Assembly (NCBI GenBank): GCA_014584605.1 | Contig: JACTMO010000022.1 | Span: 1 to 42,698, forward strand | Origin: Bacteroidota bacterium | GTDB taxonomy: Bacteria; Bacteroidota; Bacteroidia; Flavobacteriales_F; PHOS-HE28 | DNA: 42,698 nt | Direction: 5' to 3' | In this document: positions 25,930 through 42,698 of the stretch, in pieces | Layout: every line of letters starts with the position of its first letter | Numbering within the stretch: the first letter of the stretch is position 1 | Position numbers and translations under genes: made by a program | Notes under the pieces: model-generated | Databases searched by the model: none | Told to the model about the DNA's origin: nothing | The model's input: the letters and a program-made list of their open reading frames with translations, nothing else

Positions 25930-27567
25930 TCAGCGTCGGCGGTCCATGCCGGGCACCGAGGCGGGCGCACGCTCCTGCTTGGCCGGCGGTGGTTCCTTCA
26001 CCTGCGAGCCGTCGCGGTACTCGATGGACCGGGTGACGCGGCCATCGGTGTCGAGGAACTCCATGGTGCCGTGCAGGCGGCCCTGCACATAGCTCATGCG
26101 CTGCACCACGCGGCCGCGGTGGTCGTACACCTCGCAGCGCCCGTGCGGGTCGCCGTTCAGCAGCTCCTGTTCGCGCAGCTTCACACCGGCATCATCGAAG
26201 TAGGTCCATCGGCCGGTGGGCATGCCGTTCTCGTACATGCCTTCGCTGATCGGAAGGCCTGCGGTGTTGAAGGCTGCCCAACGCCCGGCGCGTTTGCCCG
26301 CTGCATAGTAGCCCTCCTCCTTCAGCTTGCCGTTCTCGTACCAGAACTTCCAGGCGCCGTCCTTCAGGTCGTCCTTCCAACCGCCCTCGTACTCCTGCTG
26401 CCCGTCCGGGTACCAGCCTTTCCATACCCCGCTGATCCGCCCCGCAGTGAACCCGCCCTGGTCCTTCATGCGGCCGTTCTCGAACCAGCTCGTCCACTGG
26501 CCTTCGCTGAGGTCGTTCACGTAGGGACCCTCCTGCAGCTTCTGCCCGCTCTCATACCAGGTGGTCCACACGCCCTGCTTCGCTCCCGCCGCATAGCGGC
26601 CTTTCTTCCAGAACTGGCCGCCTTCGTAGAAGTACACCCATTCCCCTTCCTCGCGGTCCCCGGCGTAGGTGCCCGTGCTGCTCAACTGCCCGCTGGGATA
26701 CCAGTACTTCCAGAGCCCCTGCCGCTTGTCGGCCACAAACCCGCCCTGCATGTCGACCTGGCCGGTGGAGGTGTACCAGGTCCAGGTGCTGTCCTTGAGG
26801 CCTTCCCGGTAACGCCCGGTGATGTTCACCTGCCCGCTGCGGAAGAGCAGCCGGAAGGGACCGTCCAGCCGTCCGCGCACGTAGTGCTCCTCCTTCTCGG
26901 GCCGGCCGTCGCTGTAGAAATAGGACCAGGCGCCGTGTTTCACACCGCCGAGATGGGTGCCGGTGACCTGCGGATTGCCGGCGGGGTACAGATCGCGGCA
27001 GGCGCCGCTGGGCACCCCGCCCACATATCCGGTCCCGGAGCGCAACGCACCGCTGGCGAACCAGGTGTGCAGGGTGCCCGATCCGTCCTTCACGGTGCGC
27101 GCACCGGCCTTGTCCCAGGCATCGAGCAACAGGCAGATCGTATCGGCACATTGTTCGCGCATGTAGGGCTTCCCATCGGCGTACCAGTACTCCCACAGGC
27201 CCTTCTTCCGGCCTTGTGCATAGTGCCCGCGCTCCATGGGCGTGCCGCTCTGGTAGAAGCTCTGCATCAGGCTGTCCTGTTCCCCGCGTGTGAACCAACC
27301 GTCGTGCCTGACCTGGCCATTGTCGTAGAAGATGCGGACATGGCCGTCGCGTTCACCGCCTTTGAACTCGGCCTCCTCGTACAGATGGCCCTGCGGGTCC
27401 CAGAAGCGCCACAGGCCCCATTCGCGCCCGTTGACGAAGAGGCCCTCGCTGCGCTTCACCGTGCGGGTGCTGTCCCAGTGGTCCACGAAGGGCTGGACCG
27501 ATTGGGCAGGGGACGTTCCCGGCGCAAGGAGCAGGAACGGGATGCAACGGCGAAGGGGGAAGGGCAT
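25930..27567 (-). CDS. Secreted MORN-type (YwqK-like) repeat protein
   Basis: 545 residues with a signal peptide (MPFPLRRCIPFLLLAPGTSPAQS). Nearly the whole protein is a tandem of units of about 23 residues with the pattern G.W.YWYxNGQ..xxGxYxxGxxxG, for example GLWEYWYADGKPY, GLWKYWYPSGQLSSTGTYAGD and GAWKFWYENGKLKEEGYYAAGKRAG. This is the MORN_2 variant found in so-called YwqK family proteins of Bacteroidota. Despite the toxin-antitoxin label often given to this family there is no toxin here, and a surface or periplasmic scaffold is as likely. The C-terminus is proline- and charge-rich (KEPPPAKQERAPASV). A perfect -7 box lies only four bases before the ATG. Confidence 0.85.
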   Translation of the reverse strand: MPFPLRRCIPFLLLAPGTSPAQSVQPFVDHWDSTRTVKRSEGLFVNGREWGLWRFWDPQGHLYEEAEFKGGERDGHVRIFYDNGQVRHDGWFTRGEQDSLMQSFYQSGTPMERGHYAQGRKKGLWEYWYADGKPYMREQCADTICLLLDAWDKAGARTVKDGSGTLHTWFASGALRSGTGYVGGVPSGACRDLYPAGNPQVTGTHLGGVKHGAWSYFYSDGRPEKEEHYVRGRLDGPFRLLFRSGQVNITGRYREGLKDSTWTWYTSTGQVDMQGGFVADKRQGLWKYWYPSGQLSSTGTYAGDREEGEWVYFYEGGQFWKKGRYAAGAKQGVWTTWYESGQKLQEGPYVNDLSEGQWTSWFENGRMKDQGGFTAGRISGVWKGWYPDGQQEYEGGWKDDLKDGAWKFWYENGKLKEEGYYAAGKRAGRWAAFNTAGLPISEGMYENGMPTGRWTYFDDAGVKLREQELLNGDPHGRCEVYDHRGRVVQRMSYVQGRLHGTMEFLDTDGRVTRSIEYRDGSQVKEPPPAKQERAPASVPGMDRRR

Positions 27568-35695: not shown

Positions 35696-38632
35696 ATGAG
35701 CACGCCCCACGCCAAGCACGGGACCCCTTCCGCTCCGACAGCGCGTACACAAAGCGCTCCCACCACGTCCAACCAAGTGATAGCTGACGTGGATGTCGCC
35801 TACATCGACGGCGTGGCCTATCCCATCAACAAGAACGAGACGATGCTCTCGTTCATGCGCCGGCACATCGGCCCCAACCCGGTGCCCACGCTCTGCGATG
35901 CGCCCAACCTGGAGCCCTTCGGGAGCTGCCGTGTGTGCTCGGTGGAGGTGGCGCTGCAGGAGGACGGCCCCACCAAGGTGATGGCCAGCTGCCATACCCC
36001 CGTGGGCAAGGGCATGTACATCACCAGCAACAGCCCGCGCATGGAGCGGCTGCGGAAGAACATCGTGGAGCTGGTGCTCACCGACTACGACACCGAACGG
36101 CTGAAGACCGAGGACCACGGCCGCAACGAGCTGTACAATGTGGTGCGGCAGATCGGCTTCGACATCGACAGCGTGCGCTATCCGAAGGGGAAGAACCACC
36201 TGGACACGCCGATGGACACCAGCCATCCGTATATGGTGAGCGACCTCAGCGCGTGCATCGGCTGCTTCCGCTGCGTGCGTGCCTGCGACGAGGTGCAAGG
36301 CGAGATGGTGCTCACCATGGCCGGCCGCGGCTTCGACAACCACATCGTGAAGGGCACCGACGAGAGCTTCTTCGACAGCGATTGCGTGAGCTGCGGCGCC
36401 TGTGCGCAGGCCTGCCCCACCAGCGCCATCACCGATGTGTTCAAGAGCAAGGAGAACATCCCCGACGAGGTGGTGCGCACCGTGTGCACCTATTGCGGCG
36501 TGGGTTGCAACCTGGAGGTGAACGTGAAGGACGACAAGGTGGTGAGCATCCGCGCACCGTACAGTGCGGAGGCCAACCAGGGCCACACCTGCCTCAAAGG
36601 CCGCTATGCCTTCAGCTTCTACGACCACCCCGACCGGCTGCGCACCCCGCTGATCAAGCGCAACGGCGTGCTCGAGCCCGCCACTTGGAATGAAGCCTAC
36701 GACTTTATTGTGGAGCGCCTGGCGAAGATCCGCGAGGAGCACGGCCCCGACGCCATCGCTGGCATCAGCAGCGCCCGATGCCCCAACGAGGAGAACTACC
36801 TCATGCAGAAATTCATGCGCGCGGTGGTGGGCACCAACAACATCGACTGCTGCGCACGCGTGTGCCACAGCCCCACCGCCCTGGGCATGCAACAGACCTA
36901 CGGCACCGGCGCGGCCACCAACAGCATCGACGACCTGACCGACACGGACACCATCCTGCTGATCGGCGCCAACCCCACCGACGCGCACCCGGTCACCGGC
37001 GCCCGGATCAAGCAGCAGGTCATGAAGGGGAAGACGCTGATCGTGATCGACCCGCGGCGCATCCACCTGGCACGCTACGCCCACCACCACCTGCAGCTTC
37101 GGCCCGGCACCAACGTGGCCCTGCTGAACATGATGATGCACTACATCATCAAGGAGGATCTGGTGGACACGGACTTCATCGCAAAGCGCACCGAAGGCTG
37201 GGAGAACTTCCGCAGGGAGCTGCTGGCCTTGGACGTGGACCGGATGGAGGAGGTCACCGGGGTGGACCGCGAGCAGGTGCGCCGTGCGGCCATCGCCTAC
37301 GCCAAGTCGCCCGCCGCCATGAGCTTCCACGGACTGGGTGTCACCGAGCATTCACAGGGTTCCTTCACCGTGATGCAGATCGCCGACCTGGCCATGATGA
37401 CCGGCAACATCGGCCGCCGCGGCGTGGGCGTGAACCCGCTGCGCGGACAGAACAACGTGCAGGGCGCGGCCGACATGGGGGCCCAGCCGCACCAGGGCGC
37501 CGGCTATCTGGAGGTGGAGGAGGCCGAGGTGAACAGGCTTTATGGTGCGCATTACGGCGTGCCCGTGCCGCAACACAACGGCTGGAAGATCCCCGAGATG
37601 TTCGACGCCGCTATAGACGGTCGACTCAAGGCCCTCTGGCTCATCGGCGAGGACGTGGTGCAGACCGACCCCAACACCAACAAGGTGATCCGCGCCATGG
37701 AAGGGCTGGACCTACTGGTGATGCAGGAGATATTCATGACCGAGACGGCGCGTTACGCGGATGTGATCCTGCCCGGCGCCACCTTCCTGGAGAAGAGCGG
37801 CACCTTCACCAACGGCGAGCGCCGCGTACAGCGTGTGCAAGCCGCCGTGGAACCGCTGCCCGGCACCAAGTCCGATGGGCAGATCATCGTGGACATCACC
37901 GAGCGCGTGGCCGAACGCCTCGGCCTGCCCAACCCCTTCAGCAACGGGAGCGGCGCGGCACCCAGCATCGTGAAATACCAACACCAGGAGCAGCAGGACG
38001 GACGCACCGTGACGCGCACCGCGTACCACCCCTCCTGGGCGCTGGAGGAGATCAGCGCCATCGTGCCCTTCTTCAAGGGCATCCGCTGGGAGAACCTCGG
38101 GGACAACGGCAAGCAGTGGCCCGTGGCCGCCGACGGCACCGACACCAAGATCCTGCACACGCAGACCTTCAAACGCGGCAAGGGACGCTTCATCGCCCCG
38201 CACTGGCAGGAAAGCCGCGAGGTGCTGGACCACGGCAAGGACTATCCCTACATCATCACCACCAACCGCGAGCTGGAGCACTACAACAGCGGCACCATGA
38301 CGCGGCGCACCGCCAACAGCACCATCCTCACCGAGGACCTGCTGATGATCCACCCCGCCGACGCCGAACGCCACGGCATCGCCGAGGGCGACATGGTGTG
38401 CGTGGAAAGCCCGCGCGGCAAGGTGGACATCAAGGCCCGCATCACCGATGAGGTGAGGCCCGGCATCCTCAGCAGCACCTTCCACTTCCCGGAGATCATG
38501 CTCAACGTGATCACCAGCGACGTGCACGATTCCGAGGCCAAGTGTCCCGAATACAAGGTGGTGAGCTGCAGGATCAGGAAAACGAAGAAGGCGCACCTGA
38601 GGAAGGCGGGAGAGGTGAGCGTGAAGGGGTGA
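35696..38632 (+). CDS. fdsA: Molybdenum subunit of NAD-linked formate dehydrogenase (FdsA type)
   Basis: 978 residues from the ATG at 35696; a GTG at 35660 is a weaker alternative. Cofactor sites in order: [2Fe-2S] Cys67, Cys78, Cys81, Cys99; two ferredoxin-type [4Fe-4S] clusters at Cys187, 190, 193, 197 and Cys230, 233, 236, 240; the proximal [4Fe-4S] at Cys264, 267, 271, 299; and the molybdenum ligand Cys390 in CARVCHSPTALG, followed by His391. The remainder is the bis-MGD-binding fold ending in the dinucleotide-binding domain NRELEHYNSGTMTRRT. The enzyme oxidises formate to CO2 and passes electrons to the NuoEF-like subunit. Cysteine rather than selenocysteine is used. Its last 50 codons are duplicated, altered, at 40726-40923. 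Confidence 0.9.
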   Translation: MSTPHAKHGTPSAPTARTQSAPTTSNQVIADVDVAYIDGVAYPINKNETMLSFMRRHIGPNPVPTLCDAPNLEPFGSCRVCSVEVALQEDGPTKVMASCHTPVGKGMYITSNSPRMERLRKNIVELVLTDYDTERLKTEDHGRNELYNVVRQIGFDIDSVRYPKGKNHLDTPMDTSHPYMVSDLSACIGCFRCVRACDEVQGEMVLTMAGRGFDNHIVKGTDESFFDSDCVSCGACAQACPTSAITDVFKSKENIPDEVVRTVCTYCGVGCNLEVNVKDDKVVSIRAPYSAEANQGHTCLKGRYAFSFYDHPDRLRTPLIKRNGVLEPATWNEAYDFIVERLAKIREEHGPDAIAGISSARCPNEENYLMQKFMRAVVGTNNIDCCARVCHSPTALGMQQTYGTGAATNSIDDLTDTDTILLIGANPTDAHPVTGARIKQQVMKGKTLIVIDPRRIHLARYAHHHLQLRPGTNVALLNMMMHYIIKEDLVDTDFIAKRTEGWENFRRELLALDVDRMEEVTGVDREQVRRAAIAYAKSPAAMSFHGLGVTEHSQGSFTVMQIADLAMMTGNIGRRGVGVNPLRGQNNVQGAADMGAQPHQGAGYLEVEEAEVNRLYGAHYGVPVPQHNGWKIPEMFDAAIDGRLKALWLIGEDVVQTDPNTNKVIRAMEGLDLLVMQEIFMTETARYADVILPGATFLEKSGTFTNGERRVQRVQAAVEPLPGTKSDGQIIVDITERVAERLGLPNPFSNGSGAAPSIVKYQHQEQQDGRTVTRTAYHPSWALEEISAIVPFFKGIRWENLGDNGKQWPVAADGTDTKILHTQTFKRGKGRFIAPHWQESREVLDHGKDYPYIITTNRELEHYNSGTMTRRTANSTILTEDLLMIHPADAERHGIAEGDMVCVESPRGKVDIKARITDEVRPGILSSTFHFPEIMLNVITSDVHDSEAKCPEYKVVSCRIRKTKKAHLRKAGEVSVKG
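38474..38632 (+). repeat. Left copy of duplicated fdsA 3' end
   Basis: The final 159 bases of fdsA recur at 40726-40923 with a few substitutions and one 42-for-3 base replacement. A block of 65 bases (38549-38613) is identical to 40840-40904. The two copies bracket the restriction-modification genes. Confidence 0.92.
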
Positions 38633-38644
38633 GTTTGAACCTTC

Positions 38645-39253
38645 ATGATTTTCGTCGAGCATTCCTTCCGCCACGCCTCGGTCATCCTGCGGGAGTCTGA
38701 ATTCCAGCAGGAGAGCGAGGAACTAATGGGCATCCTACGCGGGATAACCGAACAAGAGATCATCGCACAGCACGAGACATACCGTGGTGCTCAGAAGAGC
38801 CTATCAAGAGCCATCAATGATACTCTGAAGCGCCACCTCACGGATCGTGGCTGGGCAGCCGAGTCGCCCATTTTTCAAGACACACAGTACGAAGGCGACA
38901 AGTGGCGGCTTGACTTCGCCAAGGGGTTGATCTCGGTCGAGGTAGCCTTCAACCACGGGGAGGCAACGGCTTGGAACCTATTAAAGCCCGTTTTGGCCAG
39001 CGAGCTCAATCACGTGCAGAAGGCCATCCAAACGCAAGCCGGGGTCATCATTACCTGCACAGAAGCGTTGAAAGGCGAAGGGGGCTTTGACAGCGCTGTG
39101 GGCACCTACGAAAAGTTCATTGACTACCTCAAGCCGCTGGGCTCCGTGCTCACTGTGCCGATCCTGTTCATCGGCCTGGAGCCGTTCGACACATTCCGCA
39201 TCCAACATCGCAAGGTTGGAAATAAGCTGACCGGTGATGTGGTGATGAAGTGA
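38645..39253 (+). CDS. BglII/BstYI-family type II restriction endonuclease
   Basis: 202 residues. The central segment KWRLDFAKGLISVEVAFNHGEATAWNL resembles the catalytic core of the BglII family. Asp90 and Glu99 have the same nine-residue spacing as BglII Asp84 and Glu93, whereas the position of the third BglII residue (Gln95) is Ala101 here. Further family-like segments are LLKPVLASELNHVQKAIQT and VGTYEKFIDYLKPLG. Relatives cut GATC-centred sites (AGATCT, RGATCY); the site of this enzyme is not deducible. It starts 12 bp after fdsA with no visible promoter, so read-through from fdsA may drive it. GC is clearly lower than in fdsA. Its stop is two bases from the convergent methyltransferase stop. 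Confidence 0.7.
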   Translation: MIFVEHSFRHASVILRESEFQQESEELMGILRGITEQEIIAQHETYRGAQKSLSRAINDTLKRHLTDRGWAAESPIFQDTQYEGDKWRLDFAKGLISVEVAFNHGEATAWNLLKPVLASELNHVQKAIQTQAGVIITCTEALKGEGGFDSAVGTYEKFIDYLKPLGSVLTVPILFIGLEPFDTFRIQHRKVGNKLTGDVVMK

Positions 39254-39255
39254 GG

Positions 39256-40542
39256 TTACGCTGGCACTACCGCAGTTCGCTTCTTCTTCACCGGTGCATC
39301 AACGGCGCGCGCTGCCAGCACGGCCCCAGCACGCTCAATGATGCCCACCACCAAAGCATTGCCCATCAGGAAGGCCCGGCGACCATCCGAAGCGCCTGCG
39401 GTATGGTTATCCGGGAACATGTTCAAGCGCTCGAGCTCGATCGGGGTCAAGCGTCGGAGCTTCCCATTCTCGGTGCGTATCGCGTGCTTGAAGCGAGAGG
39501 GCGTTGCGCCACCTTCGGCGGTGATGATCGTCCGTGAAGGCTTGTCCAATGCATCGGGGAACACCATGCCACCTTCCGTGTAGTGGTACGTGAAGCCCGT
39601 TGCCTTGTTCGTGCGCATCTCGCTCTTTCTTCCCTTCAGGTACTCCCATTGGGGCAGTTGCTTCGCATCCACGAAGAACTCCTTGGGCACCTTGCTGCTG
39701 GGTAGGATGATGTCACCCAAGGTGACCCGCGGCCCGTCGTAAACAGGCATGGTGTTAATGGTCCAAACCTTCCGGTCGGCCATGATCCCCGCATTCTCGA
39801 ACGGACTTGTCCCTGCAGTCTTACTCGCATTGAACTTGTCCGACACCTCTGCAAGATCGCCCTTGATCACGAACTCACTGAAGGGAGTGCCAAGCGTGGT
39901 GATGGGGAATGCCTCAGCAAATACGCCATCCTCAAGAACCCAGTCCTCGAAGCCCTTCTCCTTCAACAATGCTTGGCCGATCGCGGTGGTCTTGTGGTAA
40001 CCCATGAAGAAGACACGACGGCGCCGCTGTGGCATGCCATAGTCCGCCGCGTTGATCACACGCCATTCCACGACATAGCCGAGGTCTGAGAGCGAGGCCA
40101 GCATCACAGCGAAATCGCGCCCGCGCTGCTTGGCTGGTGACTTCAATAGCCGATCCACGTTCTCGAGGAAAATGAAGCCGGGCTTGTTCTTCTTGCCCTT
40201 CAGGATGCGATGGATATCCCACCAGAGCACGCCCTTCTTGCCAGCAAGCCCTTCAGCCTGATTCAAGGTGCGGGCAACCGAGTAGTCCTGGCACGGGAAC
40301 CCGCCGACGAGCAGATCGTGATCCGGGATGTCCTTCACCGCAACTGTGGAAATATCCTGGTTGGAATGTCCTTGCGGACCGAAGCGCACGACGTAGATAT
40401 CTGACGCTTCCTGCTTCTTGGTGGAAGGTTCCCACTGATTGCTCCACACCACCTTATACTGGTCGGAAGCCCGTTCAAGTCCAACACGGAATCCGCCGAC
40501 CCCGGCGAACAGCTCGATCACTTCCAGTTTGTTCATCAACAT
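39256..40542 (-). CDS. DNA (cytosine-5-)-methyltransferase
   Basis: 428 residues with the m5C methyltransferase motifs in order: I ELFAGVGGF (10-18), IV GGFPCQDYS with catalytic Cys84, VI FLENVDRLL, VIII QRRRRVFFMG, a variable target-recognition region of about 150 residues (from roughly EDWVLEDGVF to FTYHYTEGG), IX-X PSRTIITAEGG to RRLTPIELERLNMFPD and RAFLMGNALVVG. It methylates a cytosine in double-stranded DNA using S-adenosylmethionine. It has its own promoter (40556-40563), which allows protective methylation to be made independently of the endonuclease. The start may be either ATG (40542 or 40536). The C-terminus is basic (VKKKRTAVVPA). Confidence 0.93.
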   Translation of the reverse strand: MLMNKLEVIELFAGVGGFRVGLERASDQYKVVWSNQWEPSTKKQEASDIYVVRFGPQGHSNQDISTVAVKDIPDHDLLVGGFPCQDYSVARTLNQAEGLAGKKGVLWWDIHRILKGKKNKPGFIFLENVDRLLKSPAKQRGRDFAVMLASLSDLGYVVEWRVINAADYGMPQRRRRVFFMGYHKTTAIGQALLKEKGFEDWVLEDGVFAEAFPITTLGTPFSEFVIKGDLAEVSDKFNASKTAGTSPFENAGIMADRKVWTINTMPVYDGPRVTLGDIILPSSKVPKEFFVDAKQLPQWEYLKGRKSEMRTNKATGFTYHYTEGGMVFPDALDKPSRTIITAEGGATPSRFKHAIRTENGKLRRLTPIELERLNMFPDNHTAGASDGRRAFLMGNALVVGIIERAGAVLAARAVDAPVKKKRTAVVPA

Positions 40543-40725: not shown

Positions 40726-40923
40726 AGCACCCTCCACTTCCCGGAGATCATGCTCAACGTGATCACCCGCTCGTTCATCGGCCACAACACGGGTTCAAGG
40801 ACTCGCTGCGACGTGCACGACAGCGAGGCCAAGTGTCCTGAATACAAGGTGGTGAGCTGCAGGATCAGGAAAACGAAGAAGGCGCACCTGAGGAAGGCGG
40901 GAGAAGTGGTGGCGAAGGCTTAG
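40726..40923 (+). pseudogene. Displaced, altered copy of the fdsA 3' end
   Basis: The frame reads LHFPEIMLNVIT, then a 14-codon replacement (40768-40809) where fdsA has a single Ser, then DVHDSEAKCPEYKVVSCR and on to KAGEVVAKA with TAG at 40921-40923. Apart from that replacement it matches the last 53 codons or so of fdsA, and 65 bases in a row are identical. It has no start and cannot be a gene by itself. It is either the original end of fdsA, displaced by the restriction cassette, or the last trace of a second fdsA. The substitutions sit mostly at codon third positions and at the extreme end. Confidence 0.9.
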
Positions 40924-41090: not shown

Positions 41091-42698
41091 ATGGAGCTCA
41101 AGAAGGTCATCGAAAGCATACCTCAAGACCTGGTTGAACGTTGGTGGCGTGATGAAGCACCAGCGACCGCACCAGCACAGAACGAGGGGGTCTATTACCT
41201 TGAGAAGGACGGAAAGGAACTGCCCTTCAAGTTCGTTGTGGTGGAGGTCGCGCGAAAAGCCGGGCATGACCTCTCTGTCAGTGACTTCGCTTCGGATGGC
41301 TCGAAGCGCGCATTGTTCGCTGATCGTTTTGGCTTCCGGATCGAGGAGAAGCTCGGATACAACAATACCGAACTGGCTGATCTCCAACGCTTGCATTCGG
41401 ACCTGCGTGATACGGGTTCATTCAAGGCGTTCCTCGGTCACGCGAACCATCTGGTCACGGCCATAGGCATCGCTCCGTATGTGATCCGCATGGCGCTCCC
41501 GGAAAAGGCCTGCTTGCTCGAATTGGGTGCACGCGCGATCCTCAAATACCGGGAGACATCCTCGGGCATCGAAGTCAAGTTCATGCTCCTTGATGAGAAC
41601 GTAAAGCAACTCGACGTGGCCCTGAGTCCAGAAGTCGAGCATTTCCGGCCCGTGGGTGCTTCATGGGTAACGCTGCGCTTCGCTTCATGGTCGGACATTC
41701 CAGCCGCATTGCTCGAGCAGAACGAAAGAGCTGTAAGGCTCGAATACGACCGCGTGAAGGACACTCGCTTGAGCGAGATCAGACTCGGGTCAAAGACCAC
41801 CAACGCCGCATTGAAGTATGCGGTGTACCGGAACGAAGACATTTCGACCATGCGACCCATCGACAGGTTCGCCCAAAGTCAAAGCGCTATGGACATCTTC
41901 AAGCTCGGGTGCAACTGGGGTAAAGGCCAACCGGATTATTATGACATGATCCGCGAGCGTTCCATCATCATCACGGTCCCGGACTACTTATGCTCCATTG
42001 GTGATCTGATCGTAGTTACAAGCGGTTATCGTGTCAGGGCAATTGCGCGAGTGACAGGTGCTCCTGTACCTGTTACGAGGATGCCCGAACTCATGGCGCC
42101 GTTCGCCGACCACAACATCGACTATCGCGATGCAGTGCTGGTCGCTAATGCCGATTGGTATGTACTACCTGCTGACAAAGCGTTTGAATACCGTCTACAG
42201 CAGGGCATAGTACGGGTCCAAGATCAAAACGTCCGCCGAAAGGTAGTTGAGCTCTGGAACGAGCGATCGATATCACAAGGCATGCCTCAGATACCATTGA
42301 ACACCATTCTCTACGGTCCTCCAGGCACCGGCAAGACCTACACCTCAGCGAGCTATGCGGTAGCTATTGTGGAGGGACGAGAACCTAAGCTAGTGATAAC
42401 AGAGTGCGATACACCCGAGGGTCGCGCGGCTGTTCTGCAACGCTTCAGTAAGTATCGCGCTGATGGCCGTGTAGCACTCGTTACCTTCCATCAGAGCTTC
42501 AGCTATGAGGACTTCATCGAAGGCATTAAGCCTGTGTTAGGTGCAGGCGACGGCTTGGTCCAATATGAACTGAAGGATGGTCTATTCAAGAGGATGTGTT
42601 GTAAGCACCCCCTGAAACAGGTGCGGGTGAAAGTAGAAACACCTAACCTTGATCAGGATGAAGAAGAGCAGATTTTCAGAGACGCAGATCGTAGCGAT
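41091..42698 (+). CDS. McrB-like AAA+ restriction NTPase (5' part, continues past the window)
   Basis: The frame is open from the ATG at 41091 to the window end (536 codons so far). An AAA+ domain begins near residue 400: Walker A YGPPGTGKTY (408-417) followed by VTFHQSFSYEDFIEGIKPVL, the hallmark of the McrB family of modification-dependent restriction GTPases; the Walker B and MNxxDRS motifs lie beyond the window. The first 400 residues are not classical McrB. A segment around 275-345 (FKLGCNWGKGQPDYYDMI, then VGDLIVVTSGYRVRAIARV-like strands) resembles EVE/PUA-like modified-base readers; this is inference. An McrC partner would be expected just downstream. GC is lower than in the core genes and the gene lies beside a cytosine methyltransferase. 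Confidence 0.82.
   Translation, partial: MELKKVIESIPQDLVERWWRDEAPATAPAQNEGVYYLEKDGKELPFKFVVVEVARKAGHDLSVSDFASDGSKRALFADRFGFRIEEKLGYNNTELADLQRLHSDLRDTGSFKAFLGHANHLVTAIGIAPYVIRMALPEKACLLELGARAILKYRETSSGIEVKFMLLDENVKQLDVALSPEVEHFRPVGASWVTLRFASWSDIPAALLEQNERAVRLEYDRVKDTRLSEIRLGSKTTNAALKYAVYRNEDISTMRPIDRFAQSQSAMDIFKLGCNWGKGQPDYYDMIRERSIIITVPDYLCSIGDLIVVTSGYRVRAIARVTGAPVPVTRMPELMAPFADHNIDYRDAVLVANADWYVLPADKAFEYRLQQGIVRVQDQNVRRKVVELWNERSISQGMPQIPLNTILYGPPGTGKTYTSASYAVAIVEGREPKLVITECDTPEGRAAVLQRFSKYRADGRVALVTFHQSFSYEDFIEGIKPVLGAGDGLVQYELKDGLFKRMCCKHPLKQVRVKVETPNLDQDEEEQIFRDADRSD

Follow-up and report, generated by a model that had tools for sequence, protein, structure and literature searches.

Based on the gene content of the right-hand end of the window (the entire 42,698-nucleotide stretch of Bacteroidota DNA that was analyzed), we propose with considerable confidence that a broken EVE-fold McrBC (Type IV-like) locus here adjoins an independent Type II restriction-modification (R-M) unit. 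The window lies on contig C79 of a 3.7-Mb genome, assembled into 89 contigs and rated 99.9% complete, and ends within a forward-strand open frame of 536 residues, which begins at position 41091 and runs off the end of the contig. The Walker A motif of this frame, GPPGTGKT, starts at about residue 408 (LYGPPGTGKT near 406), in agreement with the roughly 400 residues that the initial annotation had placed ahead of an AAA+ domain. The N-terminal part of the AAA+ GTPase (42276..42599, forward strand), which combines LYGPPGTGKT with FHQSFSYEDFIEG, matches the McrB profile NF008457 (1.5e-8) as well as solved McrB structures (6ut3 and 6hz4 among others). The earlier description of the frame as a McrB-like protein thus stands for 41091..42599 (forward strand), the 5' part of mcrB, whose 503 codons specify three N-terminal modules, here termed A, B and C, and the first part of the GTPase; it fails for the final 33 residues (42600..42698), which belong to the left end of an IS3-family element rather than to McrB.

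This left end (forward strand) truncates mcrB and opens with a 13-bp terminal inverted repeat (TIR), TGTAAGCACCCCC; the orfA start, MKKSRFSETQIVA, has its ATG at 42658. Immediately before the element, at 42596..42599 (forward strand), lies GTGT, the left copy of a 4-bp target-site duplication (TSD) whose right copy is on contig C5. The 98-nt sequence from 42600 recurs identically at the end of contig C56, the TGTAAGCACCCCC start of the left end has a mirrored counterpart, GGGGGTGCTTACA, on contigs C5, C34 and C22, and both the 13-bp TIRs and the 4-bp TSD are seen within this genome. The interior of the element is unassembled here; a more complete copy, from a sister genome (locus L036) and with the same right end as that on C5, encodes an IS3-type OrfB, identified by eye. 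An IS66 identity, raised by the TIR (GTAAGC...), was rejected, as PF03050 found no match in the genome and both the orfA start and the OrfB of L036 point to IS3. The right end of the mcrB-interrupting element also terminates a contig of the sister genome G435 (L081 3410-3463), just past its fdhA region (see below).

The remainder of mcrB is found on C5. When the flanks on C79 and C5 are joined without the element, the frame stays open (ELKDGLFKRMC|DAALDNYLGSS), and coverage of NF008457 is divided between the two contigs, with profile positions 221-265 on C79 and 266-447 on C5. All McrB-type motifs are present across the pair of contigs: Walker A on C79, and Walker B (IDEINRGN) and the NxxD signature (MNTADRS) on C5. 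A downstream mcrC, which had been set beforehand as a test of the McrBC assignment, occurs intact on C5 after the mcrB remainder, whose end it overlaps (PF10117 2.3e-59); it is the only mcrC in the genome, and it is absent from the window because the contig ends there. Past mcrC, C5 aligns collinearly, at 85-92% identity, with the stretch of the sister genome G399 that immediately follows fdhA. In light of the TSD, the continuous frame, the split profile coverage, the sole mcrC and the G399 collinearity, we conclude from the assembled sequence that C79 and C5 are neighbors and that mcrB is interrupted by the IS3-family element. An assembly or binning artefact that unites unrelated contig ends could be suspected from C79 and C5 being separate contigs that both end in a repeat; however, the agreement of all these lines of evidence makes it highly improbable. 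More generally, contig ends at IS copies can conceal a partner gene and an interruption alike.

The N-terminal region of this McrB is unlike that of E. coli McrB, as had been noted from the sequence at the outset: no match to DUF3578/ADAM (PF12102) was found in it at E-values up to 1. Three modules could be recognized in the region because its relatives, McrBs from the same genus and from more distant genomes, combine them differently; in the query McrB none of the three has a Pfam match, including module C to the EVE profile PF01878. Module A (residues 1-88; 41091..41354, forward strand) is a helix/beta-hairpin domain, the AF2 model of which (pLDDT mostly 64-93) has as its best structural neighbor the first ~90 residues of ScoMcrA (5zmm_B 4-93; VIA Z 5.9 over 65 aligned residues, with the next row at 3.8), a likeness of model to structure that is suggestive only. 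Module B (residues 88-253; 41352..41849, forward strand) is an uncharacterized domain of ~165 residues, which shows 37-42% identity in the McrBs of four same-genus genomes, where it stands first. Modules A and B co-occur in locus L029, and a similar N-terminal segment lies ahead of module C in loci L028 and L032, the alignment of A to L028 being weak. A comparison with PDB sequences yielded nothing convincing for module B or module C.

Bacteroidota McrBs contain a domain with 42-52% identity to module C (residues 254-395; 41850..42275, forward strand), and in them it is followed by a canonical EVE domain (PF01878 3.8e-12 in L028). With module C alone as the query, a scan of genome contigs gave three loci, and two scans of viral contigs found no relatives of it. 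AF2 modeled the full N-terminal region poorly except for module A (mean pLDDT 46); a separate prediction for module C by itself, from four sequences, gave a model of moderate confidence (pLDDT 64.5). Compared with known structures, this model matched the EVE domain of VcaM4I (Z 9.2), MJECL36 (9.1), YTHDC1 (9.0) and Mmi1 (8.9), and all 50 of its listed neighbors are EVE/YTH domains or small proteins of the same fold (Z 7.8-9.2, 109-129 aligned residues), with Foldseek in accord. Module C (residues ~258-399) is in this model of EVE/YTH (PUA-like) fold, a putative modified-base reader, in line with the EVE/PUA-type reader that the initial annotation had suspected in the N-terminus. EVE readers of 5mC/5hmC and YTH readers of m6A tie in the comparison, and the modeled fold does not name the base that is read; the assertion that the reader must ignore the site methylated by the neighboring enzyme does not follow, given that YTH (m6A) and EVE structures score equally. 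The McrB N-terminus as a whole displays a modular exchange of reader domains, the unnamed module B included. In profile comparisons, module C did not significantly match the canonical EVE domains of its relatives (probability 3%) and gave a suggestive 88% (hhalign) against an EVE-like insert in the AAA domains of sister McrBs. In these same-genus McrBs, the EVE-like domain, which has no Pfam match, interrupts the AAA+ domain in the stretch from FHQSY...EG to Walker B (L024:10207-10731; L026:7402-7917, reverse strand; L027:9385-9900).

The gene next to mcrB codes for a C5-cytosine DNA methyltransferase (39256..40542, reverse strand; PF00145 2.2e-61), as had been recognized from the start. It is convergent with a gene that had escaped notice then, as had the fdhA 3' duplication surrounding it, and that codes for a BglII/BstYI-type restriction endonuclease (38645..39253, forward strand; PF09195 4.8e-10, 39.9 bits against a cut-off of 26). 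The endonuclease is 49-56% identical to annotated plasmid enzymes, and its active-site residues D90 and E99 are invariant across five endonuclease sequences. As the endonuclease was not found in the 394 further genomes sampled from the phylum, its spread was judged from plasmids: on three of four, including 4-kb plasmids with little else, methyltransferase homologs (41-54% identical) lie near the endonuclease gene, and no McrBC gene is annotated on any of the four in the PLSDB gene tables, which are incomplete. Based on this conserved pairing, we infer that the methyltransferase protects the host from the adjacent BglII/BstYI-type endonuclease and is not cognate to McrBC. The same genome carries four further loci of the m5C methyltransferase family (PF00145), one of them partial, on contigs C68, C18, C24 and C9, and the host may, going by these sequences, be rich in m5C marks.

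In a different pairing of these genes, McrBC would itself serve as the restriction enzyme in a Type II R-M system of the kind represented by LlaJI, BsuMI and PcaRCI, with the m5C methyltransferase as its cognate partner and McrBC cutting the unmethylated site. In such known systems m5C methyltransferases adjoin McrB/McrC-like subunits (PMC1459862, PMC8989522), the gene order in the window is superficially similar, and one branch of McrB is reportedly associated with predicted methyltransferases (PMC11090510). However, this assignment is rendered improbable by the adjacent endonuclease, by the recurrence of the pair without annotated McrBC, and by a second copy of the fdhA 3' end that stands between the pair and mcrB. 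It is further weakened by the neighborhoods of those McrBs that share module B or C: McrC comes next in these, the typed methyltransferases nearby are Type I HsdM or Eco57I-like N6-adenine enzymes, and the neighborhoods examined contain no homolog of the methyltransferase or the endonuclease of the window.

The R-M pair, which we continue to regard as independent of McrBC, is enclosed by a direct repeat. The first copy is the 3' end of an intact fdhA-like gene (38474..38632, forward strand) and the second is a partial copy of the fdhA 3' end (40726..40923, forward strand), 92-97% identical and with a 39-nt internal insertion. What follows fdhA varies greatly across the genus, and among the same-genus genomes with a match, 10 of 27 have an additional partial copy of the fdhA 3' end within ~3 kb of fdhA; for a control gene an extra copy was found in 0 of 39 genomes (Fisher p = 4e-5, a value that is indicative since the genomes are related). 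The cargo beside or between the copies (loci L076, L079, L081, L083 and L087-L090) includes R-M genes, a PIN-domain gene, HicA and unknown ORFs, and G399 has a DUF5615/DUF433 pair there. The extra copies of G433 and G408 resemble fdhA from other species more than the fdhA of their own genomes, as expected if they were brought in with foreign DNA. Several of the extra copies share an insertion at roughly the same codon, following ...LNVIT (window 40726-40923; L088 1297-1539 and L087 3535-3792, both in fdhA orientation).

The duplication around the R-M pair resembles the insertion with long target duplication that has been proposed for R-M genes (Nobusato 2000, as cited in PMC3031569). We suggest that the pair would have inserted as a unit, with this event causing the duplication of the fdhA 3' end, and that the proximity of mcrB and the R-M genes would reflect a shared hotspot. 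A broader proposal, which we advance tentatively, is that small addiction-like cargo (R-M and PIN/HicA-type toxin-antitoxin genes) devoid of a recognizable integrase lands repeatedly, driven by homology, at the fdhA 3' end in this genus, each insertion bringing or duplicating a piece of the fdhA 3' end; the R-M unit of the window would be one such arrival, and its m5C may have helped to select the loss of McrBC. The fdhA 3' duplications thereby offer a tractable natural series for the study of insertion with long target duplication. Elsewhere in the window, a repeat with 72-nt spacing occurs four times at 26311-26588, the copies being 61-73% alike, and a nearby translation shows WYENGKLKEEGYY-type repeats that look MORN-like by eye.

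In its intact form, the McrB of this locus would detect a modified base on incoming DNA by means of modules A and B and of reader C with its EVE/YTH fold; GTP hydrolysis by the AAA+ domain would drive translocation, and McrC would cut, as is known for the family (PMC11090510, PMC7641849). The IS3-family element separates the sensor and Walker A, on C79, from C5, which holds Walker B and the NTAD signature, and full-length McrB cannot be made from the IS-split allele; with mcrB divided in this manner, the McrBC system is probably inactive in this genome, and the R-M pair would act on its own. Given this probable inactivity, there would be no m5C clash for the specificity of the reader to explain, and the apparent paradox of a 5mC-maker beside a presumed 5mC-cutter is resolved by an unrelated R-M pair and a broken mcrB. 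The initial annotation had instead seen two coexisting defense systems with opposite logic, a picture that the IS-interrupted mcrB, the methyltransferase having its own endonuclease and the recurrence of the pair on plasmids without annotated McrBC do not support. Its underlying premise was that both systems are functional, and compatible since the reader ignores the mark of the methyltransferase. The EVE/YTH fold is indeed able to read marks besides 5mC, and if the site were RGATCY-like the methylated cytosine of GATC would follow T rather than present RmC; yet with mcrB interrupted by an IS in this genome, we consider this premise quite unlikely to hold.

Compatible with the preferred reading of a broken McrBC beside an independent R-M unit, while adding a cause to it, is a conflict that was resolved by loss: the R-M unit, or other m5C methyltransferases, would have made McrBC toxic and thereby selected the IS-disrupted mcrB. 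There is precedent in E. coli McrBC, which kills cells once the genome becomes methylated (PMC2614495), and in Pectobacterium, where a mobile R-M unit silences a methylation-dependent endonuclease (PMC8989522). The four additional PF00145 loci of the genome fit such a scenario, as does the state of the mcrB pieces beside the IS, which are otherwise still open and so suggest a recent insertion. Against it, the genome has several copies of the IS with other insertion sites too, and m6A is an equally possible target of the reader. We accordingly give this added cause a minor share of the probability, and treat the loss of McrBC under methylation pressure as possible but unproven.

Among characterized systems, E. 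coli K-12 McrBC shares with the window locus the GPPGxGKT and NTAD motifs of McrB and the PF10117 domain and PD-(D/E)xK motif of McrC. The Walker A motif of E. coli McrB lies near residue 200; in contrast, the McrB of the window is without DUF3578/ADAM and its N-terminal region is about twice as long. Module A brings to mind the N-terminal ~90 residues of ScoMcrA, a phosphorothioation-dependent Type IV enzyme (Z 5.9); ScoMcrA is an HNH nuclease and, to our knowledge, has neither an AAA+ domain nor McrC. As in LlaJI and PcaRCI, an m5C methyltransferase is found near McrB/McrC-like genes, but that of the window has a BglII-type endonuclease of its own. In this respect the R-M pair resembles the BglII/BstYI R-M units of small Bacillota plasmids (CP124581.1, NZ_CP031224.1 and NZ_CP095106.1), with 51-56% identity in the endonuclease and 41-54% in the dcm-type methyltransferase; the genes of the plasmid units are divergent or separated, whereas those of the window are chromosomal and convergent. 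An EVE/YTH-fold reader fused to the McrB GTPase is shared with McrB of Thermococcus gammatolerans, whose YTH domain reads 6mA in DNA (as cited in PMC7641849), the window McrB adding modules A and B. Close counterparts of the whole arrangement are the EVE-McrB fusions, which are reported from nearly 300 genera and as abundant in Bacteroidetes (Bell, Wolf and Koonin 2020, PMC7641849): in these too a domain of the EVE superfamily lies N-terminal to the McrB GTPase and McrC is encoded alongside, although the window McrB has modules A and B ahead of its reader, module C lacks a match to EVE in Pfam and an IS disrupts the allele. The EVE-fold McrB of the window is, then, of an already known and ordinary kind of anti-phage enzyme.
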